This document shows positions 3,838 through 22,657 of a stretch of DNA of 37,149 bases, one piece after another. Under the pieces are notes generated by a model. That model searched no databases. It was not told the DNA's origin and saw nothing but the letters and a program-made list of their open reading frames with translations. The position numbers were made by a program, and so were the translations under genes. Location: assembly GCF_000342045.1 (NCBI RefSeq), contig NZ_AONQ01000044.1, positions 1 to 37,149 on the forward strand. The letters are read 5' to 3'. The first letter of the stretch is position 1, and each line of letters begins with the position of its first letter. This DNA comes from Paramagnetospirillum caucaseum. GTDB taxonomy: Bacteria > Pseudomonadota > Alphaproteobacteria > Rhodospirillales > Magnetospirillaceae.

Positions 3838-3969
3838 GTCTACCCCCTAAGCCTGTCCCGGTTCAGCCGGGATTGAGGGGCGCATCCTACCCGAGACCCA
3901 TCCCGGCGGAAAAGACGTCTTCCAGAATCCCTTTGCAAAATCGCCGGCGGACCTTTTGAATCCAGCCTC

Positions 3970-4728
3970 ATGGAGCGGAATAGCCGGGGCATGGACACAC
4001 TGCGCATCGCCGATGTCGGCGACACCGCCTTCAGCGTCGAGTTCGGCGACACCATCGATCCGGCCACCAGCGCCAAGGTTACCGGCCTGCGGCACGCCAT
4101 CCAGCGCGCCCGCCGCGACGGCGGCCTGCCGGGACTGGTGGAGACCGTCCCCACCTTCCGCTCGCTACTGATCCAGTACGACCCGCTGGTCACCGGCCGC
4201 GCCGCGCTGGAAGCCGACATCCGCGCCATCGCCCGGGATTGCGGCGGCGCGCCCCGGGCCGCCGGCCGCTCCTGGCTGATTCCGGTCTGCTACGACGAGG
4301 ATCTGGGCGAGGATCTGGCCGCCCTGGGCAAGGCGGGCGGCCTGTCCCGCGACGAGGCGGTCGGCCTGCACACCGGCGCCGAATTCATGGTCTATATGCT
4401 GGGCTTCATGCCCGGCTTCGCCTATATGGGCGGGGTGCCCGCGCCGTTGCGCCGCCCGCGCCGCCCCTCGCCCCGCCTCAAGGTGCCGGCGGGATCGGTG
4501 GCAGTGGCGGAGTCCCTGTGCGCCGTCTATCCCTGGGAGAGCCCCGGCGGCTGGCATCTGATCGGCCAGACCCCGGTGAGCTTCTTCGACCTGAGCCGCG
4601 AGCCCCCCATCCTGCTGGAAGCCGGCGACCGGGTGCGCTTCCGCGCCATCGGCCGCGCGGAATTCGACGCCGCGCGGCGCGATCCCGGCCTGATGACGCC
4701 CCACACCCTGCTGGCGGGAGAGGGCTGA
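3970..4728 (+). CDS. pxpB: 5-oxoprolinase subunit PxpB (KipI-like)
   Basis: First gene of a three-gene operon for ATP-dependent cleavage of 5-oxoproline (pyroglutamate) to glutamate. PxpB and PxpC form the subunit pair that phosphorylates the substrate, working with PxpA. Family hallmarks are the N-terminus IADVGDTAFSVEFGD and the conserved HTGAEFMVYMLGFMPGFAYMGG region followed by RPSPRLKVPAGSVAVAE. The length of 252 residues is slightly long because the frame opens at ATG 3970. A second ATG at 3991 (MDTLRIADV) gives the usual family start, and neither has a strong ribosome site. Its stop is directly abutted by the ATG of pxpC. Confidence 0.93.
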   Translation: MERNSRGMDTLRIADVGDTAFSVEFGDTIDPATSAKVTGLRHAIQRARRDGGLPGLVETVPTFRSLLIQYDPLVTGRAALEADIRAIARDCGGAPRAAGRSWLIPVCYDEDLGEDLAALGKAGGLSRDEAVGLHTGAEFMVYMLGFMPGFAYMGGVPAPLRRPRRPSPRLKVPAGSVAVAESLCAVYPWESPGGWHLIGQTPVSFFDLSREPPILLEAGDRVRFRAIGRAEFDAARRDPGLMTPHTLLAGEG

Positions 4729-5772
4729 ATGTCCCAGGGACTGGAAATCATCCATCCCGGCCTTTACACCAGCCTCCAGGACCTGGGGCGCTTCGGCTTC
4801 CAGGACCTGGGCGTGCCCACCGCCGGAGCGCTGGATTTCGTCGGCCTGCGCCTCGCCAATGCCCTGGTGGGCAACCGGCCGGGCGAGGCCTGCCTGGAAA
4901 TCAGCTACATGGGGCCGGTGATCCGCGTCGCGGCGGATACGGTGCGGATCGCCGTGGCCGGCGACGTCCGGCTGGCCATCGCCGACAGCGGCGGCGCGCC
5001 AAGGGCGGCGGCATCCAACCGCTCGCACCGGCTGAAGCGCGGCGACACGCTGACCGTCGGCGCGGTGGCCGGCGCGTCCACCGCCTATCTCGCCGTCGAG
5101 GGCGGCTTCGCCCTCGAACCGGTGATGGGCAGCCTGTCGTGCTATGCCCGCGCCGGGCTGGGGCCGCTGGGCGGCAAGCCGCCGGTGGCGGGGACCGTCC
5201 TGCCGCTCCGCCTCGTCCGATGCCGCGACAGTGACGACCTTGCCCTGCGCGCGCCCATGGCGTACGGCGACGGGCCGATCCGGGTGGTGCCGGGGCCGCA
5301 GAAGGAGGCCTTCACCGACGCGGCCTTCGCCACCCTGCTGGAATCGGAATACCGGGTCACCAGCCAGGCCGACCGCATGGGGCTGCGCCTGGACGGCCCG
5401 CCCCTGCGCCACCGCGCCTCCGCCGACATCCCCTCGGACGGGCTGGTCAGCGGCTGCATCCAGGTTCCGGGCGACAGCGCCCCGATCATCCTGCTGGCCG
5501 ACCATCAGACGGTGGGCGGCTATGCCAAGATCGCCACGGTGATCTCCGCCGACCTGCCCCGGCTGGGCCGCGCCGTGCCGGGAACGGCGCTGCGCTTCGC
5601 CGCCGTGCCGGTCGCCGAGGGGGAAGCGGCGCGGCGCGGCCTGGAACGGGCCATCGAACGGACAATCGCCGAGATGACCGCTATTCCGCCCACCGGCATC
5701 GATCTCCAGGCCCTCTATGGCGCCGAGCTGATTTCGGGCATGGTGGACGCGGTCAGCGGGTTGGGGAGGTAA
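4729..5772 (+). CDS. pxpC: 5-oxoprolinase subunit PxpC (KipA-like, carboxyltransferase fold)
   Basis: Partner of PxpB in the 5-oxoprolinase complex. It belongs to the biotin-dependent carboxyltransferase / allophanate hydrolase subunit 2 family. Typical family stretches are HPGLYTSLQDLGRFGFQ near the N-terminus, GVPTAGALD, and toward the C-terminus the region with SDGLVSGCIQVPG and ILLADHQTVGGY. The length of 347 residues is normal. The start ATG directly follows the pxpB stop with no gap, implying translational coupling, and pxpA begins 7 nt after its stop. Confidence 0.93.
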   Translation: MSQGLEIIHPGLYTSLQDLGRFGFQDLGVPTAGALDFVGLRLANALVGNRPGEACLEISYMGPVIRVAADTVRIAVAGDVRLAIADSGGAPRAAASNRSHRLKRGDTLTVGAVAGASTAYLAVEGGFALEPVMGSLSCYARAGLGPLGGKPPVAGTVLPLRLVRCRDSDDLALRAPMAYGDGPIRVVPGPQKEAFTDAAFATLLESEYRVTSQADRMGLRLDGPPLRHRASADIPSDGLVSGCIQVPGDSAPIILLADHQTVGGYAKIATVISADLPRLGRAVPGTALRFAAVPVAEGEAARRGLERAIERTIAEMTAIPPTGIDLQALYGAELISGMVDAVSGLGR

Positions 5773-5779
5773 GGCGGCC

Positions 5780-6550
5780 ATGGCGCTTCGCGTCGATCTG
5801 AATTCCGACCTGGGCGAGGCGTTCGGCGTCTGGCCCATGGGCGACGACCCGGCCATGCTGGACCTCGTCTCCTCGGCCAACATCGCCTGCGGCTTCCATG
5901 CCGGCGATCCCATGGTGATGACCCGCACCGTCCGCGCCGCCCAGGCCGCCGGCGTGGGAATCGGCGCCCATCCCGGCTATGCCGACCTCCAGGGCTTCGG
6001 CCGGCGTCCCATGGCCCTGTCGGGCGCCGAGATCGAGGCCCTTCTCGCCTACCAGATCGGCGCCCTGAAGGGTATCGCGGCGGCCTGCGGGACGGTGGTC
6101 CGCCACGTCAAGCCCCACGGGGCGCTGAGCAATCTGGCGGCGGTGGACGCCGAGGCCGCCCTGGCGGTGGCGCGCGGCGTCCAGGCCACCGATGCCGGTC
6201 TGATCCTGCTGGCCCCCGCCGGCTCGGCCATGGTGGCCGCCGGGCGCCGGCTGGGGCTGGCGGTGGCCGAGGAAGTGTTCGCCGACCGCAATTACGACGA
6301 CGACGGCAATCTGGTGCCCCGCTCGCGGCCGGACGCCATAATCCACGATTCCGGCGAGGCCGCCGCCAACGTGCTGCGCATGGTGACCCAGGGGCTGCTG
6401 CGCTCGGCCGGCGGCAAGGAAATCCCCTGCCGCGTCCAGTCGGTCTGCGTCCATGGCGACGACCCCCAGGCCGTCACCATGGCACGCCACCTGCGCGACC
6501 GCCTCGAAGCCGCCGGCGTCGCCATCGCGCCGCTGGCCGGGGTGGTCTAA
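5780..6550 (+). CDS. pxpA: 5-oxoprolinase subunit PxpA (LamB/YcsF family)
   Basis: Third subunit of the 5-oxoprolinase system. It is a LamB/YcsF-family protein of 256 residues, the normal family length. The signature N-terminus VDLNSDLGEAFG is followed by SANIACGFHAGDP and the conserved IGAHPGYADLQGFGRR and VKPHGALSN segments. It lies 7 nt after pxpC in the same operon. Its TAA stop overlaps the TAG stop of the convergent P-type ATPase gene within the four bases 6547-6550, so the two operons end on top of each other with no room for a separate terminator. Confidence 0.95.
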   Translation: MALRVDLNSDLGEAFGVWPMGDDPAMLDLVSSANIACGFHAGDPMVMTRTVRAAQAAGVGIGAHPGYADLQGFGRRPMALSGAEIEALLAYQIGALKGIAAACGTVVRHVKPHGALSNLAAVDAEAALAVARGVQATDAGLILLAPAGSAMVAAGRRLGLAVAEEVFADRNYDDDGNLVPRSRPDAIIHDSGEAAANVLRMVTQGLLRSAGGKEIPCRVQSVCVHGDDPQAVTMARHLRDRLEAAGVAIAPLAGVV

Positions 6551-8622
6551 CGCCGTCTCAGCGCGTTGAGCAGGATGCCGATGGTGGTGCCGTTGTGCAG
6601 CACCGAGGTGGCGATGGGCGACAGCAGGCCCAGGGCCGCCGCCCCCAGGATGGCGGTGTTGAGGCCGACCGTCGCCCGGTAGTTGGTCCTGATCAGCGCC
6701 ATCACCGCGTTGGCGGCCTGCTTGGCGTCGGCCACCCGGTCGATCTCGTCCTCCAGCAGGGCGATGTCGGCGGTCAGCCGCGCGATGTCGGCCCCCTTCT
6801 GCATGGCGATGCCCACATGGGCGCCGGCCAGGGCGGGGGCGTCATTGATGCCGTCGCCGATGAAGGCGATGCGGGCGCCGTCGTCGCTCAGTTCCGCGAT
6901 GATGCGGGCCTTGTCCTCGGGCATCAGTTCGGCGTGGAAACCGTCGAGCCCCAGTTGGGACGCCAGTTCCTCGGCCCGGTCGCGATGATCGCCGGTCAGC
7001 ATCAGGACCCGCCGGGCGCCCAGCTCGCGCAGCCGCCGGATGGTCCCGGCGCTGGTGTCGCGCACGGAATCCTTGAGGGCGAGCAGGCCGAGCAGATGGC
7101 CGCCGAACCCGATGAACAGCAGGGTCTTGCCCTCGCGGTACAGGCGCTCGATCTCGTCCTGGTGGATGCGGGTGTCGATGCCCTCGTCCTCCTGGACGAA
7201 ATGGCGCGACCCCACCACGATCCGCTTGCCGTCGATGACGCTGGCGACGCCGTGGGCGACGATGAACTCCACCTCCTGGTGGTCGAAATGGCGGTTGTGA
7301 GTGGCGCGGGCCGCCGCCACCACCGCCATGGCCAGGGGGTGGAAGTAGTGCTCCTCCACCGAGGCGGCCAGGCAGATCAGGTCCTCGGCGGAATAATGGG
7401 AATCGAAGGTGACGGCGTCGGTCACCTCCAGCATGCCGGTGGTCAGCGTGCCGGTCTTGTCGAAGATGAAGGTGTCGGCCTGGGCGAGGCGTTCCAGGGC
7501 GGTGGCGCCCTTGACCAGGATGCCGGCCTGTCCGGCGCCGTACATGGCCGATTTGAAGGCCACCGGCGTGGCCAGCTTCAGGGCGCAGGAATAATCGGCC
7601 TGCAACACCGAGGCGGCGCGGCGCCAGTCGCCGGACATCAGGAACGACGCCCCGGCCAGCTTGAGCACGGTGGGGACCAGCCGGTCGGCCATGCGCGAGG
7701 CGTCCAGCTGGGCCTCGCTCTTGGTGACCAGGGATTGTTCGACATAATCGGCGATGCGGGCGGCGGCGGTGCGGCTGCCCACCTGCTCGGCGTAGACCGA
7801 CAGGCGGCCTTCCTCCACCAGGGTGCCGGACAGCACGGAAGCGCCCCGCGTCTTGACCACCGAGGCGCTTTCGCCGGTCATGGCCGCCTCGTTGACGGTG
7901 GCCTCGCCACCCAGCACCGTGCCGTCCACCGGCACGACCGAGCCGGTGGCGACGACCACCGTGTCGCCCACCGCCACGTCGGTGGCGGGCACCTGCACCT
8001 CGACCCCGTCGCGCAGCACCCAGACATGGTCGCTGGACGGCCGCAGCAGATGCTTCAGCAGTTCGTCCGAGCGCCGGGCGATGGACTCCTCCATGTATTC
8101 CCCGAGCGCCAGCATGAAGGTGGTGGTGTTGGCGGCGGTGTAATCGGAGCGGACCAGCGAGATGGCCACCGCCATGCCTTCCAGCACGTGCGAGGTCACG
8201 CCGCTTTCCCGGTATTCGGCGACGGCGTGCTTGAGCAGCGGCACCGCCCCGGCCAGGGACGGCCCCAGGCGCAGCGGCGGCGGCAGCAGGCCGCTGCCCG
8301 CCAGGGTGGCCAGACGGGCGGCGACGGCGGCCTTTCCCCCACCCTTGGCGGAACGCCGGGCGGAAACGGGTCGGGAGGGCGGCGCCAGTCCGGCCAGCCC
8401 GGCCAGGATGGCTTCGGCATCGGTCAGGGCCGGATCGCAGGTCAGCACCAGCGAGCGCGCCCGGTGGTTGACCCGCGCGGTCAGCACGCCGGGAAGATCG
8501 GCGGCGCAGCGCTCCAGTTCGGCCGGATCGGCCGGCGTTCCGTCCCGGAAGCCATAGCGCAGGCGCACCCGCCCCGGCAGGCGGTGGGCGATCTCCACCG
8601 CCGCCAGCCAGCTTTCGCCCAT
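6547..8622 (-). CDS. fezB: P1B-type (P1B-6-like) ATPase, candidate ferrosome protein FezB
   Basis: Metal-translocating P-type ATPase of 691 residues. The N-terminus is an HMA_2-like region carrying AHRLPGRVRLRY (residues 12-23). The catalytic core is intact: TGES at 249-252, phosphorylation site DKTGT at 388-392, an HP locus near 428, and GDGIND at 589-594. The membrane ion-site motif reads YSCALKLATP (344-353), so the usual CPC is replaced by SCA. That motif and the N-terminal PGR-x-R motif fit, as I recall the literature, the P1B-6 group that includes FezB of ferrosome operons, where it is needed to build membrane-bounded iron stores. The gene is last in a six-gene operon and its ATG overlaps the previous stop (TGATG). 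The fez assignment rests on motif and synteny. A plain heavy-metal exporter is the alternative. Confidence 0.72.
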   Translation of the reverse strand: MGESWLAAVEIAHRLPGRVRLRYGFRDGTPADPAELERCAADLPGVLTARVNHRARSLVLTCDPALTDAEAILAGLAGLAPPSRPVSARRSAKGGGKAAVAARLATLAGSGLLPPPLRLGPSLAGAVPLLKHAVAEYRESGVTSHVLEGMAVAISLVRSDYTAANTTTFMLALGEYMEESIARRSDELLKHLLRPSSDHVWVLRDGVEVQVPATDVAVGDTVVVATGSVVPVDGTVLGGEATVNEAAMTGESASVVKTRGASVLSGTLVEEGRLSVYAEQVGSRTAAARIADYVEQSLVTKSEAQLDASRMADRLVPTVLKLAGASFLMSGDWRRAASVLQADYSCALKLATPVAFKSAMYGAGQAGILVKGATALERLAQADTFIFDKTGTLTTGMLEVTDAVTFDSHYSAEDLICLAASVEEHYFHPLAMAVVAAARATHNRHFDHQEVEFIVAHGVASVIDGKRIVVGSRHFVQEDEGIDTRIHQDEIERLYREGKTLLFIGFGGHLLGLLALKDSVRDTSAGTIRRLRELGARRVLMLTGDHRDRAEELASQLGLDGFHAELMPEDKARIIAELSDDGARIAFIGDGINDAPALAGAHVGIAMQKGADIARLTADIALLEDEIDRVADAKQAANAVMALIRTNYRATVGLNTAILGAAALGLLSPIATSVLHNGTTIGILLNALRRR

Positions 8623-8939
8623 CAGCTTTGCCCGGCCGCCAGTTCCGCCTGGATGTCGGCCGCCTGCTCCTTGATCTCCGCCAGCCCGCCGGCCAGCTCG
8701 GAATAGAGCTTGAGGCCGGAACGGATCAGCCTGGCCCGCAAGGCTTCGTCGGCCAGCACGTAGGTGGCGGCGGCGCCGATCAGGGCGCCGACCAGGAACT
8801 GCTCCGACGTCTTGCCGGGCAGCAGGTTGGCGAGGCCGCCGAACAGCCCCTGGCCCTGGCCGTTGCCCTGGGCCGGCGCGCCGTTCCAGTCGCCGTTGCG
8901 CTTGCCGTTCTTCGCCTTCTTACGCTTCTTCTTGGCCAA
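8622..8939 (-). CDS. Small Lys-rich membrane protein of the fez-like operon
   Basis: A 105-residue protein with no sure family. It has a very basic N-terminus (MAKKKRKKAKNGKR), a Gly/Gln-rich linker, one hydrophobic segment around residues 47-65 (EQFLVGALIGAAATYVLAD) and an amphipathic helical tail, somewhat like YtxH-type proteins. The start codon is TTG, supported by a strong AGGAG seven bases upstream. It overlaps the end of the preceding gene by 20 nt, and its stop overlaps the ATPase ATG. A structural or membrane-shaping role in an iron organelle is inference from the operon only. Confidence 0.75.
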   Translation of the reverse strand: MAKKKRKKAKNGKRNGDWNGAPAQGNGQGQGLFGGLANLLPGKTSEQFLVGALIGAAATYVLADEALRARLIRSGLKLYSELAGGLAEIKEQAADIQAELAAGQS

Positions 8940-9243
8940 GGGAGTTCTCCTGGATCAAAGGGGATTGAAGAGCCGTTTCCGCCGCCATCACCACGGCGGC
9001 GCCGGCCAGCACGGCGGCCGCGCCGGTGCGGTAGTCGCGGCGCGCCGCCGCCTCGGCGGCCTTGGTGCCGGCGGCCAGGGCCGCGCCGCCCTGCAGGCCG
9101 TGGCGGAGCACCTTGCGCCACGGAAGGGCGGCGGCGGCGTCACGGTTCTGCAAGGCCGACAGCAGCGCCGTGGCCACGAAGCCGCGCAGGAACACTTCGG
9201 CGACCGAGGCGCCGGCCTTGCCGTTGCGCCGCTTGCGCTTCAC
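8920..9243 (-). CDS. Small hydrophobic Ala-rich protein of the fez-like operon
   Basis: The 107-residue protein starts at GTG 9243, whose bases form a GTGA overlap with the stop of the upstream gene, a typical translational-coupling junction. A much longer open frame runs upstream to 9909, but it lies antisense-like within two other genes of the same operon and is fortuitous. The protein has a basic N-terminus (VKRKRRNGK) and two hydrophobic stretches (about residues 15-33 and 75-95) separated by an Ala/Arg-rich helix. No recognised domain. By context it is a membrane component of the cluster. Confidence 0.7.
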   Translation of the reverse strand: MKRKRRNGKAGASVAEVFLRGFVATALLSALQNRDAAAALPWRKVLRHGLQGGAALAAGTKAAEAAARRDYRTGAAAVLAGAAVVMAAETALQSPLIQENSLGQEEA

Positions 9244-9584
9244 GATGCGGTTCCGCCCTCGGCCGGGGCGGGAGCGGCGGCCTTGGCCTTCCTGGCCGGA
9301 GCCTTGCGGGGGGCGCGCGGCTTGGCCGCCTTGGCCGGCGGGGCCGCTTCGCCGGGGACGGCGGACACCAGCTTGGCCCGCAGGCTGGCCGAGGACTTCT
9401 CGATGGCGGTAAGCCCGGAAACCGTGGCGTCGCGCAGGCCGCCCTGGGCCTGGCAAAGACCCTGGCGGGCCTTGTCGCCGATGCCGTCGAGGCGGGCGGC
9501 GGCCGAGGGGGCGGCCTTGTTGATCAGGCGGACCCCGACGATGCCGGCGAGCAGCCCCGAGGCGAAGGTGAGCAGAGGATGCAT
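9240..9584 (-). CDS. Single-span membrane protein with H1-like Lys/Ala/Pro tail
   Basis: The 114-residue protein has an N-terminal membrane segment (LLTFASGLLAGIVGVRLI), an amphipathic middle (about 30-75) and a C-terminal tail from about residue 82 dominated by Ala, Lys, Pro and Arg, resembling histone-H1-like tails. ATG 9584 is preceded by AAAGG at suitable spacing. The N-in or N-out orientation cannot be told. It is the third gene of the six-gene cluster, 42 nt after the HMA-domain gene, and ends in a GTGA overlap with the next. No function is known to me. Organelle membrane protein is inference. Confidence 0.75.
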   Translation of the reverse strand: MHPLLTFASGLLAGIVGVRLINKAAPSAAARLDGIGDKARQGLCQAQGGLRDATVSGLTAIEKSSASLRAKLVSAVPGEAAPPAKAAKPRAPRKAPARKAKAAAPAPAEGGTAS

Positions 9585-9626
9585 GGCTTTGCCTTTCGAA
9601 TGAAAGAATCGGGTCGAGTGGAAGAA

Positions 9627-9929
9627 TCAGGTCCCGGCCAGGGCCTGCAGCAAGCGTTCCGCATGGGGGGAGCGGGTGCCGTCGACGATATCCTGCCAGG
9701 CGGAGGGGGCAATCTGGGCGGGGTCGTATTCCACCACGCAGGAGCGGGCCAGGGGATTGACGTTGATGGAACGGATTCCCGCCGCCCGCGACGCGGCATC
9801 GATGAAATTGCGCACCTCGGCGGCCGCGCCCTCGGCCTGACCGTCGAGCTTGAGACGGACACGGCCGGGAATGTGATGGGCGATCCGCGTCTGGCGGGCG
9901 AAACGCCAAAGGTTTTCGGTGGTGCTCAA
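9627..9929 (-). CDS. Small HMA_2-like protein (PGRVRLKL motif)
   Basis: A 100-residue soluble protein resembling a stand-alone heavy-metal-associated-like fold. RIAHHIPGRVRLKL near residue 16 matches the N-terminus of the P-type ATPase (IAHRLPGRVRLRY), and a second half (SINVNPLARSCVVEYDP) has the beta pattern of HMA domains, but no CxxC is present. The open frame extends to 10019, yet the likely start is TTG 9929 with GGGGGAG five bases upstream. The motif shared with the ATPase suggests joint membrane or metal handling, which is inference. Confidence 0.75.
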   Translation of the reverse strand: MSTTENLWRFARQTRIAHHIPGRVRLKLDGQAEGAAAEVRNFIDAASRAAGIRSINVNPLARSCVVEYDPAQIAPSAWQDIVDGTRSPHAERLLQALAGT

Positions 9930-9963
9930 GGAGACTCCCCCAATGCGCGCCAAAGGCGACGGT

Positions 9964-10419
9964 CTACTGTAGTATCTTCTTGCGATGATTGGCCAGATGG
10001 ACCAGCAGGAAGGCCACATGCGCGGCGCCGAACGCCGCGTGCAGCTTCTTGCCCACCGCCAGGGCCAGCAGGGTTCCGGTCAGGCTGGCCAGCATGCCGA
10101 TCTTGGCCGGGCGGTTGAGGCTCCACAGGGAAAGGCCGTCCCCCGAGGGAGCGGCGACATCGGCGGCGGCCTCCTCGGCCTCGGCCTCCGCCTCGGCGAA
10201 CAGGGCGCGAATCCGGGCCTCGATCTCCGAGGGAGCGATTCCGGCGGGATCATAGCGCAGAACGACGCTGCCGGCGGCCGGCTTGCCCTCGGCGGCCAGC
10301 ACGCCGTCCCAGCCGGCCAGCGCCGCCGCGACCTCCGCGTTGCGCCCGGCCGCCCGCAAATCCGGGTGCCGGATTCTCAGCCGCCCGGAGACATGCGATG
10401 CGATGCAGGTCCCGCTCAT
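9964..10419 (-). CDS. HMA_2-like protein with C-terminal membrane segments, first gene of the fez-like operon
   Basis: A 151-residue protein. The N-terminal domain carries CIASHVSGRLRIRHPD (residues 5-20), a variant of the PGR-x-R motif of the ATPase, and the HMA-like second half SVVLRYDP. A long Glu/Ala helix follows (about 75-90), then a hydrophobic C-terminus (about 105-140, two short spans) ending in basic residues. ATG 10419 has AGGGAG nine bases upstream. It is promoter-proximal in the cluster and lies 98 bp downstream of the Irr-like gene. Fez operons are described as carrying such HMA-plus-membrane proteins. I do not assign a specific fez letter. Confidence 0.75.
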   Translation of the reverse strand: MSGTCIASHVSGRLRIRHPDLRAAGRNAEVAAALAGWDGVLAAEGKPAAGSVVLRYDPAGIAPSEIEARIRALFAEAEAEAEEAAADVAAPSGDGLSLWSLNRPAKIGMLASLTGTLLALAVGKKLHAAFGAAHVAFLLVHLANHRKKILQ

Positions 10420-10472
10420 GCCCGTGTTCTCCCTGTCAGACCCAAGGAATATCCCCGCAGGGGCGGCGTATC

Positions 10473-10485
10473 AAGAATTTTTCTT
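10473..10485. promoter_or_regulatory. Irr-box-like inverted repeat
   Basis: AAGAA-TTT-TTCTT is a perfect 5+3+5 inverted repeat centred about 60 bp upstream of the first gene of the six-gene cluster, in an AT-rich island (10470-10500). Its GAA-N3-TTC core agrees with the published iron-control-element consensus for Irr (TTTAGAA-N3-TTCTAAA), though the outer bases match only partly. With an Irr-type gene next door, iron control of the cluster is a reasonable inference. Confidence 0.45.
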
Positions 10486-10517
10486 TAAAATCAACAATAT
10501 CGCTCTACATCTAAGAC

Positions 10518-10937
10518 TTACTCGCGACATATCGCCGGCCGGATGCGGACCAGGATGTCCACCCCTTCCACCTCATAGCCGGGCGGTGGAGTCGGCAGGT
10601 GGTCGAGGACCGGCTGGCGGCCGGGGATATCGCTCAGCCGCCCGGTGGACAGGTCGAGGAAGTGGTGGTGGCCGGCCGGGCTGGTGCAGAACCAGGTCCG
10701 CTCACCCAGGTCGACACGGCGGACCAGCCCCACCTTGGCGAACTGGTTGAGGATGTTGTAGGTGGTGGCCAGGGACAGCCGCAGCCCCGCCTCCGCCGCC
10801 AGACGGTGCGCCTCGTCGGCCGACACGTTGTCGGAGCTCAGGGTCTGCAGCAGCTCCACCATGCCCCGCCGCTGGCGGGTCGGCCGCAGCCCGGCGTCGC
10901 GGAGAACGGTTTCGGAGGATACGCCGGAGGAAGCCAT
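10518..10937 (-). CDS. irr: Irr/Fur-family iron response regulator
   Basis: A Fur-superfamily transcription factor of 139 residues. The N-terminal winged helix starts with LRDAGLRPTRQR and includes the recognition-helix region LSLATTYNILNQFAKVGLVRRV. The dimerisation half has the HHH cluster (GHHHFLDL) typical of Irr rather than Fur. Irr proteins respond to haem and iron status and act as repressor or activator through ICE boxes. The frame opens at a TTG (10952), but ATG 10937 is the more likely start. It lies directly upstream of, and in the same direction as, the six-gene cluster. Another Fur-family specificity such as PerR is less likely. Confidence 0.82.
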   Translation of the reverse strand: MASSGVSSETVLRDAGLRPTRQRRGMVELLQTLSSDNVSADEAHRLAAEAGLRLSLATTYNILNQFAKVGLVRRVDLGERTWFCTSPAGHHHFLDLSTGRLSDIPGRQPVLDHLPTPPPGYEVEGVDILVRIRPAICRE

Positions 10938-11012
10938 GACCAACCGATGCAATTGCGAGTTACTCGCGGCAAGTACCGCAATCGCTCCGATCCGGCAAGC
11001 GGCTTTTCCCGA

Positions 11013-11990
11013 TCAGGCCTCGTCCTGCCACCGGCGGGCGATGATGCCGGCGGCGATCAGCTGGATCAGGTGATAGAGGATGGTCGGCGCGATGATCAGG
11101 CCCAGGACGGGCGAGGCGCCGAACATGATCTTGGCCATGGGCACACCGGTGGCCAGGGATTTCTTGGTGCCGCAGAACACCCCGGCGATGGCATCCTCGC
11201 GGGAAAAGCCCAGCAGGCGGCAGGCCAGCCGCAGGCTTACGAAGACAAAGGCGAACAGGGCCGCCGCCCCGCCGGCTGCCTGGAGCACGAAACCGCTTCC
11301 CTGCCCGGCCCACACCCCCTCGGCCACCGAATCCGAGAAGGAGTTGAAGACGATCAGCAAGATGGTGACGCGATCCAGGGCCTTCAGCCATTTGATGTTG
11401 CGCTCGATCCAGGGCCGCGCCCAGGGCCGCAGCGCCTGGCCCAGCACGATGGGCAGCAGCACCAGCAGCATGATCTTGACCAGCACCCGGCCCAGGTCCA
11501 GCGAGGCGCCGCCGGCGGACAGGTACCAGTTGACCCACAGCGGCGTCAGCACCACCCCGATCAGGCTGGACAGGGTGGCGTTGAAGATGGCGCCGGCCAC
11601 GTTGCCGCGCGCGATGGAGGTCATGGCCACCGAGGACGAGATGGCCGAGGGCAGCGCCGCCAGGAAGAAGAACCCCAGCATCAGGTCCGGCCCGACCCGC
11701 CCGCCCAGCGCCAGGGCGCAAGCCCACACCAGGACGGGAAACAGCAGGAAGGTCGAGGTCTGGACCAGCAGATGCAGACGCCAGTTGACCAGACCGGCCT
11801 TCATGCGCTCGGGCGGCAAGGTCAGACCGTAGAGCAGGAAGACCAGCGCCACGCCGTAGGTGGTGACGGCGTCCATGTGGAGATGGCCGCCGCTCCGGCC
11901 GAAATCGGGCAGCACCCAGGCCAGACCGACCATGGACATCAGGCCGAGCAGGAAGCCGTCGATACCGATACGGCCGAGAAGCTTGAACAC
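11013..11990 (-). CDS. Bile acid:sodium symporter-like (SBF-like) transporter
   Basis: An inner-membrane protein of about 325 residues with eight to ten hydrophobic helices. It belongs to the SBF-like/BASS superfamily in the bacterial branch sometimes called YfeH-like. Visible hallmarks are the N-terminus FKLLGRIGIDGFLLGLM, the LLYGLTLPPERM segment, FLAALPSAISSSVAMT and the second-repeat FCGTKKSLATGVPMAK, matching the crossover-helix motifs of the fold. The substrate is unknown. The open frame reaches ATG 12068. GTG 11990 is preferred because CGAGG lies six bases upstream and homologues begin there; ATG 12017 is an alternative. It shares a direction with the Irr gene but has its own spacing of about 75 bp. 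Confidence 0.82.
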   Translation of the reverse strand: MFKLLGRIGIDGFLLGLMSMVGLAWVLPDFGRSGGHLHMDAVTTYGVALVFLLYGLTLPPERMKAGLVNWRLHLLVQTSTFLLFPVLVWACALALGGRVGPDLMLGFFFLAALPSAISSSVAMTSIARGNVAGAIFNATLSSLIGVVLTPLWVNWYLSAGGASLDLGRVLVKIMLLVLLPIVLGQALRPWARPWIERNIKWLKALDRVTILLIVFNSFSDSVAEGVWAGQGSGFVLQAAGGAAALFAFVFVSLRLACRLLGFSREDAIAGVFCGTKKSLATGVPMAKIMFGASPVLGLIIAPTILYHLIQLIAAGIIARRWQDEA

Positions 11991-12118
11991 GCGGAACCTC
12001 GAACAGGGCGGAACCATGGCCGGGACACTACCCCAACCGCCGCCCCCGCTGGCAAGACGATCCTGCATGCCGCCCCGCCGCCATCGACTTTTGCCGCGCG
12101 CTCTGGCATGAGAAAGCG

Positions 12119-12586
12119 GTGCGACGCCTGCTCTGGATCATCCCGGCCGTCCTGGCCCTGCTCCCCCTCCCCGCCCGGGCCGAGACCCTGGAGGGGAAGC
12201 GTATCTTCATCGAATTCACCTACGACCCCAGCACGCCGGAACTGGCCGCCGCCCGCAAATGGGGCAAGGCCCACTTCGCCAAGGCCCAGGCGGCGGGCCG
12301 CCCGGTGCGGCTCAGTGTCGGGCGCTCGCGCGGGACCACCCTGATCAGCCTGGAATCGGTGGCCATCTGCGACCGGGTCAAGGCCTGTCCGCTGCTGGTG
12401 TTCCGCGACCTGACGGCGCGGCCCATCCTGGAAACCACCTCGTTCCAGAACGTGCTGATCGAATACCGCGACAGAGAGATCTTCCTGGTGATCCGCCTGT
12501 GGGAGGAAACCACCGAATGCCGGATCACCACCTCCGGACGGTCACGCTGCAAGAAAACGCCGAGGGATAAAACCAAGCCCCGATAA
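12119..12586 (+). CDS. Secreted hypothetical protein
   Basis: A 155-residue protein starting at GTG with a clear Sec signal peptide (RRLLWIIPAVLALLPLPARA, cleavage after ARA near residue 21). The mature part has two Cys near the middle (AICDRVKAC), a later Cys pair in the tail (ECRITTSGRSRC), and a strongly basic C-terminus. The even number of cysteines suggests disulphides in the periplasm. No family recognised. It is divergent from the SBF-like transporter. It is the last chromosomal gene before the tRNA attachment site, and its stop codon lies inside a strong hairpin. Confidence 0.7.
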   Translation: MRRLLWIIPAVLALLPLPARAETLEGKRIFIEFTYDPSTPELAAARKWGKAHFAKAQAAGRPVRLSVGRSRGTTLISLESVAICDRVKACPLLVFRDLTARPILETTSFQNVLIEYRDREIFLVIRLWEETTECRITTSGRSRCKKTPRDKTKPR

Positions 12587-12597
12587 CGGGGCTTGGT
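12572..12597. terminator. Strong hairpin at the end of the secreted-protein gene
   Basis: ACCAAGCCCCG and CGGGGCTTGGT pair perfectly over 11 bp with a 4-nt loop (ATAA) that contains part of the stop codon. A T-tract (TTTTAT) follows on the minus strand only, so it is best suited to stop leftward transcription and may also block rightward transcripts. Confidence 0.7.
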
Positions 12598-12807
12598 CAA
12601 CCGGCTGCCAGACAGGACGGCATGAACCAGAAGGGGAAAAGTGAGGTGGCGCGACGTCGCACCATCCTGTTTTTTCATCTGAACATTCCGGCAACAGCAG
12701 CCATCGCCATGACGCATGTATGCGGCATGGAATTTTCGGAACCAGCGGAAAATGGCGGAATTCCGCCAAACCGCAAAGATTGCAAAACCCCAGGCAAAAC
12801 AAAAGAG

Positions 12808-12841
12808 AACGGCCCGTAAGTCTTTGAACTTACGGGCCGTT
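12808..12841. terminator. Intrinsic terminator downstream of the tRNA 3' end
   Basis: AACGGCCCGTAAGT (12808-12821) and its exact complement (12828-12841) form a 14-bp stem with a 6-nt loop. T-rich tracts follow on both strands, stronger leftward. It lies just past the CCA end of the minus-strand tRNA fragment, as expected for the native tRNA terminator. Confidence 0.85.
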
Positions 12842-12855
12842 TCTCTGTATCTCGA

Positions 12856-12903
12856 TGGTAGCGGGAGAGGGACTTGAACCCCCGACCCCAGGATTATGAT
12901 TCC
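12856..12903 (-). other. Attachment site: 3' half of a CAT-anticodon tRNA
   Basis: Read on the minus strand, this is the 3' part of a tRNA: anticodon loop with CAT, variable loop, T-arm (GGGGG, TTCAAGT, CCCTC), acceptor strand TCCCGCT, discriminator A and encoded CCA. The CAT anticodon means elongator tRNA-Met or the precursor of a lysidine-modified tRNA-Ile. The 5' half is missing: beyond the anticodon stem the sequence becomes unrelated AT-rich DNA, with the integrase gene 170 bp on. This is the classic duplicated tRNA end left by a tyrosine recombinase. The intact tRNA should lie at the far end of the element. Confidence 0.8.
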
Positions 12904-12967
12904 TTATTTTTCGCGAAATATGACGCAACATATCTCAACCACAAAGCCTCTGTAAACCGCATAAACG

Positions 12968-12995
12968 TTGACTTTTACCGTCTTATCCGTAGCAT
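12968..12995 (+). promoter_or_regulatory. Candidate sigma-70 promoter for the integrase
   Basis: TTGACT (12968-12973) and TAGCAT (12990-12995) are separated by 16 bp in AT-rich DNA, about 80 bp before the integrase ATG. Matches to consensus are 5/6 and 4/6. Inferred only. Confidence 0.4.
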
Positions 12996-13030
12996 GGGTG
13001 AACATAGGAAAACGGGGCAAAGCCGGAACT

Positions 13031-13054
13031 TTTGTGCCCCCGTTTGTGCCCCCG
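13031..13054 (+). repeat. Tandem 12-bp direct repeat before the integrase
   Basis: Two back-to-back perfect copies of TTTGTGCCCCCG (13031-13042 and 13043-13054) end 18 bp before the integrase ATG, between the candidate promoter and the ribosome site. They could be recombinase arm-type sites or a regulator-binding site. Confidence 0.6.
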
Positions 13055-13072
13055 TTTTATCGGAGAGATGCC

Positions 13073-14356
13073 ATGCCCCGTGAAGCTGCCCGCAAGGTGA
13101 TTACCGATGCCATGGTGCAGAAGGTGAAGCCAGCCCCTAAAGGCAAGCGTAACGAGTATTGGGATGCCATCGTGCCGGGCTTCGGCCTTCGCGTCACCGA
13201 TGCCGGGGGCAAGTCGTTTTTCCTCCGCACCCGCATTGGCACCGGAACCGGACAACTCCGCTTGTCGTGGCCGTACCCGGCAACCTCTCTCGAAGCAGCC
13301 CGCGCCTTGGCGAAAGCCGCGCTCCAGGATGCGGAAAAGGGCGTCGATCCGAAGGTGAAGGAAACAGCCGAGAAGCAGGCCAAGGCGGAGAAAGCCGCCA
13401 ACACCTTCAAGGCCGTGGCCGAACGCTTCATGCGCCAGCACGTCGAACCCCGCCTCGCCGCCTCGACTAAGATGGACTACAAATGGGCCTTGTTCGGCCA
13501 GGACACGGCGGCTTGGGCGAACAAGGCCGTTGACGCCATCACCCGCTCCGACGTGCGCAGGGCACTCGACGCCACGATAGAGCGCGGCAGCCCCGCCGGG
13601 GCGAACAAGCTGCTTGCCTATCTCTCCAAGTTCTTCAACTGGTGTGCCGAGCGAGATTTGCTCGAAGTGCCCCCCACCATCCGCATCAAGCCCCCCTCGC
13701 CCAAGAGCGTCGGGGAGCGCACCTTGAACCAAGCCGAGGTGGTCGAGGTATGGGCTGCCTTCGAGGTGGAAGGCGGATTGTTCGGCGACCTGTTCAAGCT
13801 ACTTCTGCTGACCGGCCAGCGCCGCACCGAGACGGCAGGTATGCGGCTGTCGGAATTGTCCGACCTGGACGGCGAAAAGCCGGTTTGGGAAATCCCCAGC
13901 ACCCGGACAAAAAACGGACGCCCGCATACGGTGCCGCTGTCGCCACAGGTCGTCACCATCATCAAGGGCCGCCCCGAGGTGGGCGACCTGGGGCTATTGC
14001 TCACCACTACCGGAACCACCCCCACCACCGGCTTCAGCAACGCCAAGGAACGGGTGGACGCCTGGATCGCCAAGCGGCGCGAGGAGGCGGGCGAACAGCC
14101 CATGCCGCACTGGACGCTTCACGACCTCCGGAGAACCATGGTGACAATGATGAATGAGCACGTCGGCATCGCCCCCCATGTGGTGGAAGCCTGCGTCAAT
14201 CACGTCTCGGGAATGGCGAAGGCGGGCGTTGCCGGGGTGTACAACAAAGCCCTGTATATGGATGATCGCCGCCGGGCGCTCGAAGCCTGGGCAAACTACC
14301 TGGACGGCCTTATCAGCCCCAAGGACACGACCAACGTGGTGAAGCTGCGGAGCTAG
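13073..14356 (+). CDS. int: Tyrosine recombinase / site-specific integrase (DUF4102 type)
   Basis: A 427-residue integrase of the island/phage type. The N-terminal DUF4102 arm-binding domain (ITDAMVQKVKPAPKGKRNEYWD, then PGFGLRVTDAGGKSF) is followed by a core-binding SAM-like domain (about 120-215) and the catalytic domain. The active-site residues are in place: Arg250 (TGQRRTE), His350 and Arg353 (HDLRRT), His377 (NHV) and nucleophile Tyr390 (GVYNKAL). The start ATG is chosen because GGAGAG lies six bases upstream; a longer frame from TTG 12968 runs through the promoter and repeats. It sits beside the truncated tRNA and is expected to have integrated this element. It appears intact. Confidence 0.95.
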   Translation: MPREAARKVITDAMVQKVKPAPKGKRNEYWDAIVPGFGLRVTDAGGKSFFLRTRIGTGTGQLRLSWPYPATSLEAARALAKAALQDAEKGVDPKVKETAEKQAKAEKAANTFKAVAERFMRQHVEPRLAASTKMDYKWALFGQDTAAWANKAVDAITRSDVRRALDATIERGSPAGANKLLAYLSKFFNWCAERDLLEVPPTIRIKPPSPKSVGERTLNQAEVVEVWAAFEVEGGLFGDLFKLLLLTGQRRTETAGMRLSELSDLDGEKPVWEIPSTRTKNGRPHTVPLSPQVVTIIKGRPEVGDLGLLLTTTGTTPTTGFSNAKERVDAWIAKRREEAGEQPMPHWTLHDLRRTMVTMMNEHVGIAPHVVEACVNHVSGMAKAGVAGVYNKALYMDDRRRALEAWANYLDGLISPKDTTNVVKLRS

Positions 14357-16788: not shown

Positions 16789-16849
16789 TACACCACCAAC
16801 CCTATGGTAGCCAAGTCTGCTGACGTAAATGGTTAAAGCGGAGGCGTTC

Positions 16850-17611
16850 GTGAGCCCATTGATCCGCAGGGAAAACCAGAAAGTCTTGGATGCCATCACT
16901 CAATTCCGTCAGGCCAAAAGCCAGGAGGAATTGTGGCAGAGCGCCAATCAACAGCTTGCCGATTTCGGTATCGGCGGAATTTTGTATGGCAGTGAGTTGA
17001 TCCACGAAGGCAGAAATCGCCTACGCGACCGGAAAACAACCACCATGCTGTCCAGCCTTGCACCTGCCTATATCGAGTTAAAAATGGACACCATGGTCAT
17101 CGATGATGACTATTACTACAAAATGGCCAAGGCAGGAACCAACCCTATATTCTGGAGCGATCTGCCACAGCCAAACGCCAACAGCCCCGAGGAGTTGCGG
17201 CAATTTGAGATTGATTGCGATTATGGGGTTTTGACGGGAATCACCCTCCCTTCTCGATTTGGCGGCGGGCTGGGCATCAGTGCCGTGTCGTGCCACGCCC
17301 CCAACATGTCGTGGGGGGAGTTCGACCGGCTTTGGGCCGAAAAGGGCGGCACCATCCAAGGCATCGCTTGCGCCTTCGATACCAGCCTCCGCGAAAGCCA
17401 CATGAGGGAGATTTACCACCTGTCTGAACGCGAACGCGAATGCCTGCTCTGGCTTGCCGCCGGGCTCAGACAACAGCAGATTGCATTTAAGCTGAACACA
17501 AGCGTCAAAACAGTTGAAAAACAAATCGAATCAGCGCGACGCAAATTAAAAGCATCCACCGTGCCACAGGCGATCACGACAGCGGTGGTTTTCAACCTCC
17601 TAACTCCCTGA
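16850..17611 (+). CDS. LuxR-family regulator with autoinducer-binding-like domain
   Basis: A 253-residue regulator. The first 165 or so residues have the length and pattern of an autoinducer-binding domain (for example DDDYYYKMAK, FWSDLP, GGGLGISAVSCHAP), and the C-terminus is a LuxR helix-turn-helix (LSERERECLLWLAAGLRQQQ, then TSVKTVEKQIESARRKL). GTG 16850 is chosen over ATG 16829 because GGAGG sits five bases upstream. No LuxI-type synthase is present in the window, so it would be a LuxR solo. Whether it binds an acyl-homoserine lactone cannot be told. Confidence 0.82.
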   Translation: MSPLIRRENQKVLDAITQFRQAKSQEELWQSANQQLADFGIGGILYGSELIHEGRNRLRDRKTTTMLSSLAPAYIELKMDTMVIDDDYYYKMAKAGTNPIFWSDLPQPNANSPEELRQFEIDCDYGVLTGITLPSRFGGGLGISAVSCHAPNMSWGEFDRLWAEKGGTIQGIACAFDTSLRESHMREIYHLSERERECLLWLAAGLRQQQIAFKLNTSVKTVEKQIESARRKLKASTVPQAITTAVVFNLLTP

Positions 17612-18382: not shown

Positions 18383-21300
18383 ATGACGCGGTCGTTGAGT
18401 CGTGCGTTGCTGGCGAGTGTTTCAGGGGTGGCGTTGCTGGCTCATGGCGGAATGGCGTGGGCAGCCGACGACACCATTCCGAAGGTGCTTTCCAATGACT
18501 GGGGAGTTCAGACACAGGCGCTGAGCAATCCCCTCAACATCGGGGCTGGCAACCGTCTACTGGCACCCAGTGGTTCCATCGCGGTGACCGTGGCTCCGAG
18601 CGCCTCCTGGGATACGTCCGGAACAGCCAACATCATCTTGTACAACAACGCCACCATTCAGGGCGGCAGTGACGGGCGCAAGGCCATCGACATCGGCGCC
18701 TGTGGCAACCTGTCCTGCGGCTCCCAGGCTGTGAACACTGTCATCACGGTGAATTCCGGAGCGACCATCGCAGGCGGAAACGGGCACCACGGCACCGAGA
18801 CTGGTTCGGGTCAGGGTATCCTGATCGAGGATTCGGTTAGCGGAAGCATCACCGTCAGCAACGGCGGAAGCATCACCGGCGGCTCCGGCGGTACCTCTTA
18901 TAGCGGCGGTCACGGTATCGACCACTTCGGCACCGGCATGCTGTTTCTCAGCGGCTCCGGCATCGTCGCGGGCGGGGCGGGCGGCAACGGCACGGCTTCC
19001 GGTGGGGCCGGGGCTGGCGGCAACGCCACCGACGGTGCCGACGGTATCGGTCTGTCCGCCACCGGTTCCAGGCTGAACATGAGCGCCGGGCGGGCTGTCG
19101 GTGGTAATTCCGGGGTGGGGGGCTCCAGCACCGGTGGGACCGGTGGATACGGCGCCTACAGCGGCAACGGCATCACCATCGGCGATTATGGCTCCGCCTC
19201 GGTCGGTACGGGCAATTCCGCCACCCTGTCCGGTTCGGCCCAGGCCATCGGCGGCAATGGCGGCGGTGGCGGCAGCGGCGTAACCGGTTCCAGCGGCAAT
19301 CCCGCCAATCTGGGCAGCAATGGCGGCGGCTGGGGTATCGGCATGCTGGCCAACGGCTCTTCGCTGACCACCAGCGGTTCGGCTGCCGTGACGGGCGGCA
19401 ATGGCGGGACCGGCGGCGACAGCACCGGAGCGGGCAATGCCGGAGCAACCGGTGGCGTCGGCGGCTCCGGCATCGGGATCGGTTCGACGACGCCAGCCCC
19501 CAACAACGTGACTGTAACCATCGGTTCGGGCACCACCGTCACCGGTGGCAACGGCGGGGCGGGCGGGACTGGCGGAGCCGGTGCCAATGGTGGTGACGGT
19601 GGGAACGGTAGCTACGCCATATATGTGCGAAATGCCGGAACTGGGACTCAGATCAGCAACAGCGGCACCATCACCGGCGGTACGGGCGGCTCTGGCGGGA
19701 CCGGTGGTACGGGCGGTTCCAGTGGGGCCTCCGGTGCCAATGGTGGCGGCATCTATGTCAACGCAGGGACGGTCAGTAGCCTTATCAATGACGGAACCAT
19801 CATTAGTGCCGGTGGCAACAATGCCGGAGGCGGCATTTCCATAGGCAGCAGCGGGAATATCACCTCCATCACCAACAGCGGCACCATTTCCGGTGGCTCT
19901 GCATGCGCTACTGGTGACTCCGGGTGCAACAAGTCACTGGATTTCTCGACGGCACAATCAGCCGTCACGGTGAACAACAGCGGCACCCTTCAGGGGGATA
20001 TTCGGGCATCGACGCACGGCGACACCTTCAATTTCACCGGCGGCAACCTCAATGGCAGTCTCTGGGTGCAAGGATCGGGGACGGCCCCATCCATCAATGT
20101 CACGTCCGGCACCACGACCGTTGCCGGAAGCCCCTTGACGATCGGCCAGGACAATCCGATCCGCTCGCTGACCATATCGAACGGCACCACTCTCGCGTTT
20201 TCTCGTGACGCGACCATCAACCTGGGCGCATTCAGCTTCTCCGGTGGCGCCACCATCGACAATGGGACGTCAAAAGTGACTCTCAATCACTATGACGGCA
20301 TGAATGTTCCAGAGTCGCAGAGTGGTTCTCTTTATTTCAAGACGACCATCAACGCCAACACCGGCAAGCACGGCTATTGGGTCTTTACTCAGGCCAGTGG
20401 TACGCCGGACACCACCATGTTCTCTACCGGAGCCCCCATTATCGTCCCCACTGTTGTCGGTACTGCCGCCCTTGGTTCGAAGTATATCGTTATCCAGGAC
20501 ACCGATGGTCGCACCATCGTCAACATGCCCACGGTGGTCAATTCCGGCGGCTATACTTGGCGGGTCAGTTCCGTCACCGGCGCGGGGCAGGCCGACACCG
20601 ATGGCGTCTCCTACGGCACCGGCACCACCAACATCATCCTCACCAACGGCGGCGCCAACGCCGCCGGGACCGCCACTGGCGTCAACGGAAGGGGCCTCTC
20701 CGCCCTGGCCAGCTATACCGGCAACAATTCCACCATGACGGCATTGTCCAACGCCATCAACAATCTGACCTCCGCCGCCGATATCGAAAAAGCGGGGGCT
20801 CAGCTACGCCCGCCCGCCAACGGAGCCACCACCCAGGCGGCTTTGGGTGCGGTCGGCCAAGCGGTCAACACCATCTCCATCCGCACCGACAGCGTACGGG
20901 CCGCCTCGACCGACACCGGAGGCGGCACTGGCGTGTCTTCGGGTGAAATGTTGCGTGGTCTGGGCGTGTGGACCCAAGGCTTCGGCTCCGTCGCCACCCA
21001 GGACAAGCGCCTGGGGATCGATGGCTACACCTCCGATACCTACGGCCTTGCCTTCGGCGCCGACGCCAAGGTGGCGGAACCCGTCCGGGTCGGCCTATCC
21101 TTCGCCTATGCCCGTACCAACGTAGACGATGCCGGAAGCCGCGAGGGATCGGGGCAGAAGATCAATTCCTATATCGGCAGCCTCTACGGCACCTATACCG
21201 CCTCGCGCTGGTACATGGACGGAGCCTTGACCTACGGCCATCACACCTACGACGGCACCCGTATCATCAACATCACCGGGGCCACTCAGCAGACCGCCAA

Positions 21301-21796
21301 GTCCTCCTATTCCGGCCAGCAATACGGAGCCAAGGCGGAGATTGGCGTACCATTCGCAGTGGGGGCGGGACTCACCCTGACCCCGTTGGCCGGATTCGCC
21401 TATAACCACTTGCGCCAGGACGGCTATACCGAGACGGATGCCGCCGCCGCCCTGACCGTGGGATCATCCAACACGGATTCCATCAAGTCCAACTTTGGCG
21501 CCAAGGTTTCCGGTACGATGGCGCAGTGGGGCGATTGGAACGTCAAACCCAACGGGCGCGCCATCTGGAGCCACGAGTTCAACACCAAGGCCCATGATCA
21601 GTCCTCGGCCTATGTGGATGGCGGTTCGTCCTTCACCACGGCAGGCACGGACGCGGCCAGCGAATCCTTCGCCATTGGGGTCGGCGTGGACTTGGCCTCG
21701 GTGCGCAACACGACCCTCTCAGCCAAGTACGATGCCGGGCTTTCCGACCGCTATGTGAGCCATACCGGCTCGCTCCAAGCCCGTATGGAGTTCTGA
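18383..21796 (+). CDS. Autotransporter (type Va) with Gly-rich passenger
   Basis: An outer-membrane protein of 1137 residues that exports its own passenger. The signal peptide covers residues 1-27 (ALLASVSGVALLAHGGMAWA). The passenger, about residues 28-830, contains a long Gly/Ser/Asn/Thr-rich beta-helix-like stretch (about 95-480) with recurring GGxGG and SGTITGG-type turns. The C-terminal beta-barrel (about 850-1137) begins at GLGVWTQGFGSVAT, includes GYTSDTYGLAFGADAK and ends in MEF with the terminal aromatic needed for BAM recognition. AGGGGG lies five bases before the ATG. A role in adhesion or biofilm is usual for such passengers but not shown here. The gene looks intact. Confidence 0.9.
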   Translation: MTRSLSRALLASVSGVALLAHGGMAWAADDTIPKVLSNDWGVQTQALSNPLNIGAGNRLLAPSGSIAVTVAPSASWDTSGTANIILYNNATIQGGSDGRKAIDIGACGNLSCGSQAVNTVITVNSGATIAGGNGHHGTETGSGQGILIEDSVSGSITVSNGGSITGGSGGTSYSGGHGIDHFGTGMLFLSGSGIVAGGAGGNGTASGGAGAGGNATDGADGIGLSATGSRLNMSAGRAVGGNSGVGGSSTGGTGGYGAYSGNGITIGDYGSASVGTGNSATLSGSAQAIGGNGGGGGSGVTGSSGNPANLGSNGGGWGIGMLANGSSLTTSGSAAVTGGNGGTGGDSTGAGNAGATGGVGGSGIGIGSTTPAPNNVTVTIGSGTTVTGGNGGAGGTGGAGANGGDGGNGSYAIYVRNAGTGTQISNSGTITGGTGGSGGTGGTGGSSGASGANGGGIYVNAGTVSSLINDGTIISAGGNNAGGGISIGSSGNITSITNSGTISGGSACATGDSGCNKSLDFSTAQSAVTVNNSGTLQGDIRASTHGDTFNFTGGNLNGSLWVQGSGTAPSINVTSGTTTVAGSPLTIGQDNPIRSLTISNGTTLAFSRDATINLGAFSFSGGATIDNGTSKVTLNHYDGMNVPESQSGSLYFKTTINANTGKHGYWVFTQASGTPDTTMFSTGAPIIVPTVVGTAALGSKYIVIQDTDGRTIVNMPTVVNSGGYTWRVSSVTGAGQADTDGVSYGTGTTNIILTNGGANAAGTATGVNGRGLSALASYTGNNSTMTALSNAINNLTSAADIEKAGAQLRPPANGATTQAALGAVGQAVNTISIRTDSVRAASTDTGGGTGVSSGEMLRGLGVWTQGFGSVATQDKRLGIDGYTSDTYGLAFGADAKVAEPVRVGLSFAYARTNVDDAGSREGSGQKINSYIGSLYGTYTASRWYMDGALTYGHHTYDGTRIINITGATQQTAKSSYSGQQYGAKAEIGVPFAVGAGLTLTPLAGFAYNHLRQDGYTETDAAAALTVGSSNTDSIKSNFGAKVSGTMAQWGDWNVKPNGRAIWSHEFNTKAHDQSSAYVDGGSSFTTAGTDAASESFAIGVGVDLASVRNTTLSAKYDAGLSDRYVSHTGSLQARMEF

Positions 21797-21819
21797 GAAT
21801 CACAAGGCAGACGTCATGG

Positions 21820-22626: not shown

Positions 22627-22657
22627 GTCTTAGGAACAAAAGAGAAAAGACCACAGC

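Follow-up and report, generated by a model that had tools for sequence, protein, structure and literature searches.

A six-gene fez-type operon behind an irr-linked element in Paramagnetospirillum caucaseum, a bacterium that also carries magnetosome genes

The closest described counterpart of the locus analyzed here is that of Rhodopseudomonas palustris CGA009, in which six fez genes reportedly give rise to ferrosomes (PMC12016538). Desulfovibrio magneticus is described as making both ferrosomes and magnetosomes (PMC12748827), and it is the only organism so described among the literature searched. Of the components, FezC is presented in one report as a haem-b cytochrome related to DUF4405 (PMC10979944), and a review table lists Fe(II) as the substrate of P1B-6 ATPases (PMC7558416). 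No report of fez genes in Magnetospirillum was found in the literature searched. Here, we describe a stretch of 37,149 nucleotides from Paramagnetospirillum caucaseum (contig NZ_AONQ01000044.1; hereafter the window), in which six minus-strand genes are predicted, with high confidence, to constitute a complete fez operon of the Rhodopseudomonas type with a function in ferrosome formation. This identification draws on gene content and order, the clade of the FezB ATPase, its SCA motif and the make-up of the gene-1 family.

The six genes run from 10419 down to 6547, and all their reading frames are intact. They are separated by gaps of 34 and 42 nt and then overlap by 4 nt (GTGA), 20 nt and 1 nt (TGATG); these re-derived coordinates agree with the original prediction, made from the DNA alone, of six packed genes on this strand. 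From the first gene to the last, they are:

9964..10419, minus strand: fez gene 1, 151 aa, an HMA-like domain (SGRLR) and a two-helix DUF4405-like part; candidate FezC-like cytochrome
9627..9929, minus strand: fez gene 2, 100 aa, TTG start, HMA_2-like with HHIPGRVRLK, without a strongly hydrophobic segment
9240..9584, minus strand: fez gene 3, 114 aa, a hydrophobic N-terminal segment and a Lys/Ala/Pro-rich tail
8920..9243, minus strand: fez gene 4, 107 aa, GTG start, glycine/alanine-rich with hydrophobic segments close to both ends
8622..8939, minus strand: fez gene 5, 105 aa, TTG start, a single hydrophobic segment and a conserved C-terminal part
6547..8622, minus strand: fezB-type P1B-6-like ATPase (gene 6), 691 aa, an N-terminal HMA-like domain with PGR, and SCA in the metal-site helix

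A (P/S)GR-x-R motif, a mark of Fez proteins, is shared by three of the products, as had been claimed: SGRLR in gene 1 and PGRVR in both gene 2 and gene 6. The three HMA-like parts (genes 1 and 2 and the FezB N-terminus) carry this motif instead of CxxC, which is absent from all of them. Gene 2 matches HMA_2 at E 1.3e-6 with 28.8 bits, below the Pfam cut-off of 30, and gene 1 matches it at E 1.9e-4, likewise below the cut-off, while genes 3-5 have no Pfam or NCBIfam match at E 0.1 apart from a sub-threshold DUF998 match of gene 4. The earlier wording of small membrane proteins fits genes 3-5, which have hydrophobic segments, but not gene 2, which has no strongly hydrophobic one, so the small proteins are not all membrane-like.

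The last gene encodes a P-type ATPase that scores 475 bits against the heavy-metal model TIGR01525 (cut-off 346) and also exceeds the cut-off of the 'cadmium family' model TIGR01512. At the position where copper pumps hold CPC, it holds SCA (alignment with 3j09), the mark of P1B-6 ATPases, and the motif noted earlier in the ATPase (ADYSCALKLATP) is confirmed. In a tree of 95 ATPase rows, the window FezB groups with those of Magnetospirillum sp. SS-4, G011 and Phaeospirillum GS7 (SH-aLRT 99), within a 28-row clade (SH-aLRT 97) that includes Rhodopseudomonas and Rhodoblastus and, one metagenome bin labelled Stygiobacter aside, is alphaproteobacterial. All seven further P-type ATPases of the window's own genome fall outside the FezB clade (SH-aLRT 100). 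A P1B ATPase tree had been proposed as a check, and its outcome favors the assignment, with the caveat that it comes from a quick search, has long outgroup branches and uses stop-to-stop frames that may carry residues before the true start. The 97 ATPase rows collected include L046 (match in two frames) and L142 (462 residues), which were left out of the tree; L060-L063 were left out as having no frame with DY[SAC]CA. In the stretches examined, an intact core FezB frame is missing from four of 89 loci (L096, L127, L140 and L142).

A scan of named genomes with the SCA region returned at least 595 stretches, 527 of them confirmed, and counts of named loci given here refer to the best 80 of the 527, some of which are close relatives of each other or stop at contig ends. 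Iterated profiles for genes 1-5 were run over 93 loci, comprising the window, 12 others and the 80 named stretches, with some loci present twice; the families of genes 5, 4 and 3 occur in 88, 83 and 81 of these, respectively. All six families are present in 53/80 named loci, and with genes sorted by their ends the exact order g1-g2-g3-g4-g5-FezB is seen in 41/80. Because homologues recur in the same order in these 41, the six-gene arrangement is not due to chance. The other layouts have gene 1 on the opposite strand (16/80), genes 2-5 and FezB without gene 1 (11/80) or fewer genes (12/80). The locus of Rhodopseudomonas sp. BR0M22 (L086) is colinear with the window, with identities of 40, 50, 49, 36, 46 and 73% for genes 1-6. 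FezB was detected in 5 of 16 Rhodopseudomonas genomes, in three of them on contig 1 at 2.55, 2.50 and 1.56 Mb, and from genus and gene number we infer that the BR0M22 operon corresponds to R. palustris RPA2333-2338. The search for fez relatives of the five small proteins, also suggested earlier, therefore yielded homologues in the same operon positions for each.

The distribution of FezB is patchy and specific. With the window's own genome counted, the FezB N-terminus is found at E < 1e-50 in 10 of 60 relatives, plus G053 at 4.7e-19, and in 19/55 genomes of the family, 3/385 of the class and 8/398 of the phylum; the viral contigs searched contained no FezB relative. G060, G655 and G741 hold more distant sets, in which SCA ATPases are accompanied by diverged small proteins. 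The G060 locus (L057, C47:19000-33000) has at 4868-8665 a shorter fez-like cluster with flanking HMA-like proteins, FezB and a gene-5-like protein, together with a glycine-rich protein of 193 aa whose tail is rich in Lys and Pro. At the G655 and G741 loci (L163, L164), the gene-3 position is taken by a Pro/Gln/His-rich protein of 239-264 aa, and an HMA-like gene lies on the opposite strand. Two genomes have two FezB loci each: Sinirhodobacter populi SK2B-1 (L097, L104) and Ectothiorhodospira magna B7-7 (L136, L140); two Irr/Fur-like frames lie adjacent at L097.

Gene 1 may encode a protein that joins a FezC-like cytochrome to a metal-domain fold, with haem binding a further prediction; this reading follows from the HMA-like fold, the DUF4405 matches of the family and the reported nature of FezC. 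Eight residues are invariant in the 58 members of the gene-1 family (G12, R13, R15, N102, K106, H127, G131 and H141). At E 0.01, 56/58 members match HMA_2 and 21/58 match DUF4405, and of four members scanned singly against DUF4405, one exceeds the Pfam cut-off (28.2 against 26.7). The predicted structure of the window protein places an HMA-like domain before a helical hairpin (mean pLDDT 85.6, pTM 0.55). The top Foldseek matches of this model include many metal-binding domains from copper pumps and chaperones, and a profile search of solved structures agrees with an HMA-like fold (best E 1e-7).

The setting of the operon may link it to iron storage. On either side of the six genes lie the following features:

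10470..10520, minus strand: conserved intergenic element behind irr, found before bfr-bfr in two fez-negative relatives and before fez in the window
10518..10937 (to 10952 with a TTG start), minus strand: divergent Irr-like regulator of the Fur family, 98 nt upstream of fez gene 1
11013..12068, minus strand: SBF-like transporter, adjoining irr in the window, G009 and G016
3970..6550, plus strand: pxpB-, pxpC- and pxpA-type genes (5-oxoprolinase), convergent to fezB; pxpA identified by family models, pxpB and pxpC by sequence and order

The Irr-like protein scores below both NCBIfam Irr cut-offs (119.6 against 150 and 114.6 against 170), and so do its relatives encoded at the equivalent position in G009 and G016; both cut-offs are exceeded by a paralogue encoded elsewhere in the window's own genome (contig C35). 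The Irr-like protein of the window carries an HxH haem motif (GHHHFLDL), whose role in Irr is described in a report that also has rhizobial Irr repressing bfr under iron limitation (PMC7762939). Between their SBF and MFS genes, G009 and G016 each have an irr gene (with 87% and 81% identity, respectively, to that of the window) and two bacterioferritin genes, and all four bacterioferritin proteins exceed the TIGR00754 cut-off. Downstream of the irr stop codon, the window, G016 and G009 share a conserved stretch that includes TTGAT..TAAA.GAAAAA..CTTG. The order is thus irr-element-bfr-bfr in the two fez-negative relatives and irr-element-fez in the window and, because the same element precedes both, the fez operon occupies the irr-linked bacterioferritin slot. 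Either fez replaced bfr in the window, or the other lineage acquired bfr. G002 has, between MFS and SBF, an irr homologue of lower identity (48%), in a stretch with no bfr match. A search that covered 1.30 of 4.86 Mb of the window's own genome found a bfr pair at C20:11852-12816; its members are 64 and 72% identical to those of G016, and the pair lacks the irr-linked element.

The surrounding blocks can be followed further. In all 12 genomes with a long enough stretch around SBF, this gene has an MFS and a glutathione reductase (gor) gene nearby, the gor of G009 being confirmed. The pxpBCA block and the SBF block are 0.7 to 1.4 Mb apart in G009, G016 and G010. SS-4 has SBF, MFS, gor and pxp-type genes within about 6.5 kb and its fez operon elsewhere, so the nearness of pxp and SBF may predate fez.

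Candidate control sites were compared upstream of 78 fez operons, several of them from related strains, and of 523 control genes at the same loci. FNR-like sites with at most one mismatch occur upstream of 12/78 operons against 0.4 expected, which suggests that part of the fez relatives may be under low-oxygen control as well. The longer ICE consensus (up to 4 mismatches) is found in 7/78 against 1.1 expected, and an exact AGAANNNTTCT repeat, present in the window, in 3/78 against 0.3 expected. Fur-box-like sites (up to 6 mismatches; 6/78 against 2.1) were too weak to be used. Searches of the window found no sigma-70 type promoter in 6300-11300 and no Rfam family at gathering score in 4000-13000. 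Since fez follows irr and an element that in two relatives stands before bacterioferritin genes, its expression is probably that of an iron-storage operon with a response to iron or haem.

The host also carries magnetosome genes. The original prediction allowed for other iron compartments besides ferrosomes and, at the gene level, this is borne out by mamC, mamD and mamG on contig C71, which score above NCBIfam cut-offs (a MamC query followed by curated models). An IS110-family transposase gene lies beside this region (C71:616-1644). Carriage of both gene sets is uncommon among relatives, with Fisher values that ignore kinship: among 17 genomes of the window genus, 7 have fezB, 11 have mamC and 2 have both (p 0.035); when a second genus (g5) is added, 3 of 30 have both, 12 mam only, 12 fez only and 3 neither (p 0.003); and in the family of 55 the numbers are 4, 17, 15 and 19 (p 0.08). 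The N-terminus search did not find FezB in the relatives G009 and G010. G824, which has fezB and mamC, carries a six-gene fez operon (L169, C1:4061000-4073000, FezB at 3936-5985) whose FezB match is split between two frames meeting at residue 608/609. This break is either a real loss or an assembly error. By eye, a transposase-like frame lies just downstream of the G824 FezB.

In the mechanism we propose, the operon would be iron-responsive, probably anaerobic, and would build Fe(II)-loaded vesicles. FezB would act as a pump that moves cytoplasmic Fe(II) into vesicles arising from the cell membrane. At the cytoplasmic face of this pump, the PGR-bearing HMA-like parts (genes 1 and 2 and the FezB N-terminus) would serve as a scaffold or gate rather than in CxxC metal binding. 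Gene 1, as a FezC-like haem protein, may set the redox state of iron at the membrane, and genes 3-5 may shape or coat the vesicle.

Several observations weigh against the fez reading or narrow it. Rhodopseudomonas is the named reference in the FezB comparison, in which D. magneticus, Shewanella and C. difficile have no entry by name. No SCA motif was seen in the ATPases of the phylum relatives G454, G511, G525 and G571 despite their FezB-like N-termini, and such an N-terminus is therefore no proof of the SCA type. At the loci of these four (L165-L168, for G571, G525, G454 and G511), a P-type ATPase with neither SCA nor ACA by pattern is found alongside proteins of the HMA-like and gene-5-like kinds; these clusters may represent a fez variant with another metal-site motif. 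Window gene 1 falls short of E 0.01 against DUF4405, and its model has a best Foldseek E of 7.4e-3, with none at 1e-3. The best FNR-like site upstream of the window operon has two mismatches. The AGAANNNTTCT repeat is not conserved in G009 and G016; a strict Irr box was dropped for this reason, and any role of Irr would rest on position. With a bfr pair elsewhere in the genome, fez would not be the sole iron store.

An operon for heavy-metal export, in which no organelle is formed and the ATPase drives Zn, Cd, Cu or surplus Fe(II) out through the cell membrane, would agree with the TIGR01525 and TIGR01512 scores and with the other P1B groups, which are known as exporters. We consider it very improbable, as the ATPase has SCA instead of CPC, CxxC is absent from each of the three HMA-like parts, the ATPase usually comes with the five small families (all six in 53/80 named loci) and R. 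palustris, in the published account, builds ferrosomes from such a set (PMC12016538). The operon could instead be present and unused, as a recent acquisition placed beside irr by chance and now silent or decaying, with iron kept in magnetosomes and bacterioferritin. The patchy occurrence in 19/55 family genomes, the near mutual exclusion with mamC in two genera, the frameshifted fezB of G824 and the bfr pair kept at C20 point in this direction; set against six intact frames, tight gene spacing and a conserved element in front, they leave this reading unlikely.

A more serious question is whether the Irr-like neighbour has anything to do with fez. An Irr-like gene does adjoin the operon, as originally predicted, but the same irr-SBF pair is present in two fez-negative relatives (G009, G016), there with bacterioferritin. 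The place of irr beside the SBF gene is accordingly independent of fez, and irr as a dedicated fez regulator was rejected. The operon may merely have landed between two conserved blocks, a possibility that also draws on the scarcity of Irr-like frames in fez flanks: they occur at 4/80 named loci, three of them (two in one genome) in Rhodobacter relatives some 2 to 6 kb beyond FezB. The fourth, in Rhodoblastus sphagnicola, precedes gene 1 by about 0.8 kb on the same strand, and argues the other way, as do the repression of bfr by rhizobial Irr in the account cited above and the start of fez directly behind the element that precedes bfr in G009 and G016. On balance, we regard an unrelated Irr as possible but doubtful. 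Similarly tentative is a broader proposal that the irr-linked slot, with the same promoter element, holds a bfr pair or a ferrosome operon as alternatives, that ferrosomes and magnetosomes are largely exclusive (both gene sets in 3/30 genomes), that this organism is of the rare kind equipped for both, and that MSR-1 (putatively G824) lost ferrosomes through a broken fezB.

Other genes of the window were noted beyond this region. A tyrosine integrase with an arm-binding domain is encoded near the fez region at 12968-14356 (plus strand); the window has no tRNA genes, and a tRNA-linked island is thus not supported. Further along the plus strand are a LuxR-type regulator with an autoinducer-binding domain (16829-17611) and, at 18383-28348, a 1137-aa autotransporter and a two-partner secretion (TPS) pair, the latter consisting of a POTRA/ShlB-type protein (23101-24567) and a TPS exoprotein (24425-28348).

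This gene combination bears on how cells apportion their iron among magnetite and other stores; in AMB-1, magnetite is reported to account for only about 25-30% of cell iron (PMC9160268). In an alphaproteobacterium that combines the two gene sets and has tractable strains among its near relatives, direct tests of organelle competition become possible. The slot common to bfr and fez would provide independent genomic evidence for a role of fez in iron storage. If real, the frameshift in fezB of G824 (putatively MSR-1) would predict that MSR-1 makes no ferrosomes.

The window operon is a predicted addition to a known kind of fez operon, and its setting, with magnetosome genes and a bacterioferritin slot, is informative. 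Judged from BR0M22, it resembles R. palustris RPA2333-2338 in having six genes, a FezB-type ATPase in last place and the same order of small families. It differs from R. palustris in that its host also has magnetosome genes and that it stands behind an irr-linked element which precedes bacterioferritin genes in two relatives. The fez operon of D. magneticus reportedly has three genes. With fezABC of D. magneticus and FezC of D. indicum, the window operon shares a FezB transporter and, putatively, a DUF4405-like FezC (PMC10979944), whereas in its gene 1 the DUF4405-like part is joined with an HMA-like domain in a single protein, the comparison with D. magneticus being by description. The fez genes of Clostridioides difficile, likewise compared by description, differ in being repressed by Fur. 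Within Magnetospirillum, the bfr pair behind irr in G009 and G016 shares the slot and the irr-linked element with the window operon, although the genes are unrelated: bacterioferritin forms a protein cage, whereas fez genes make a membrane organelle.

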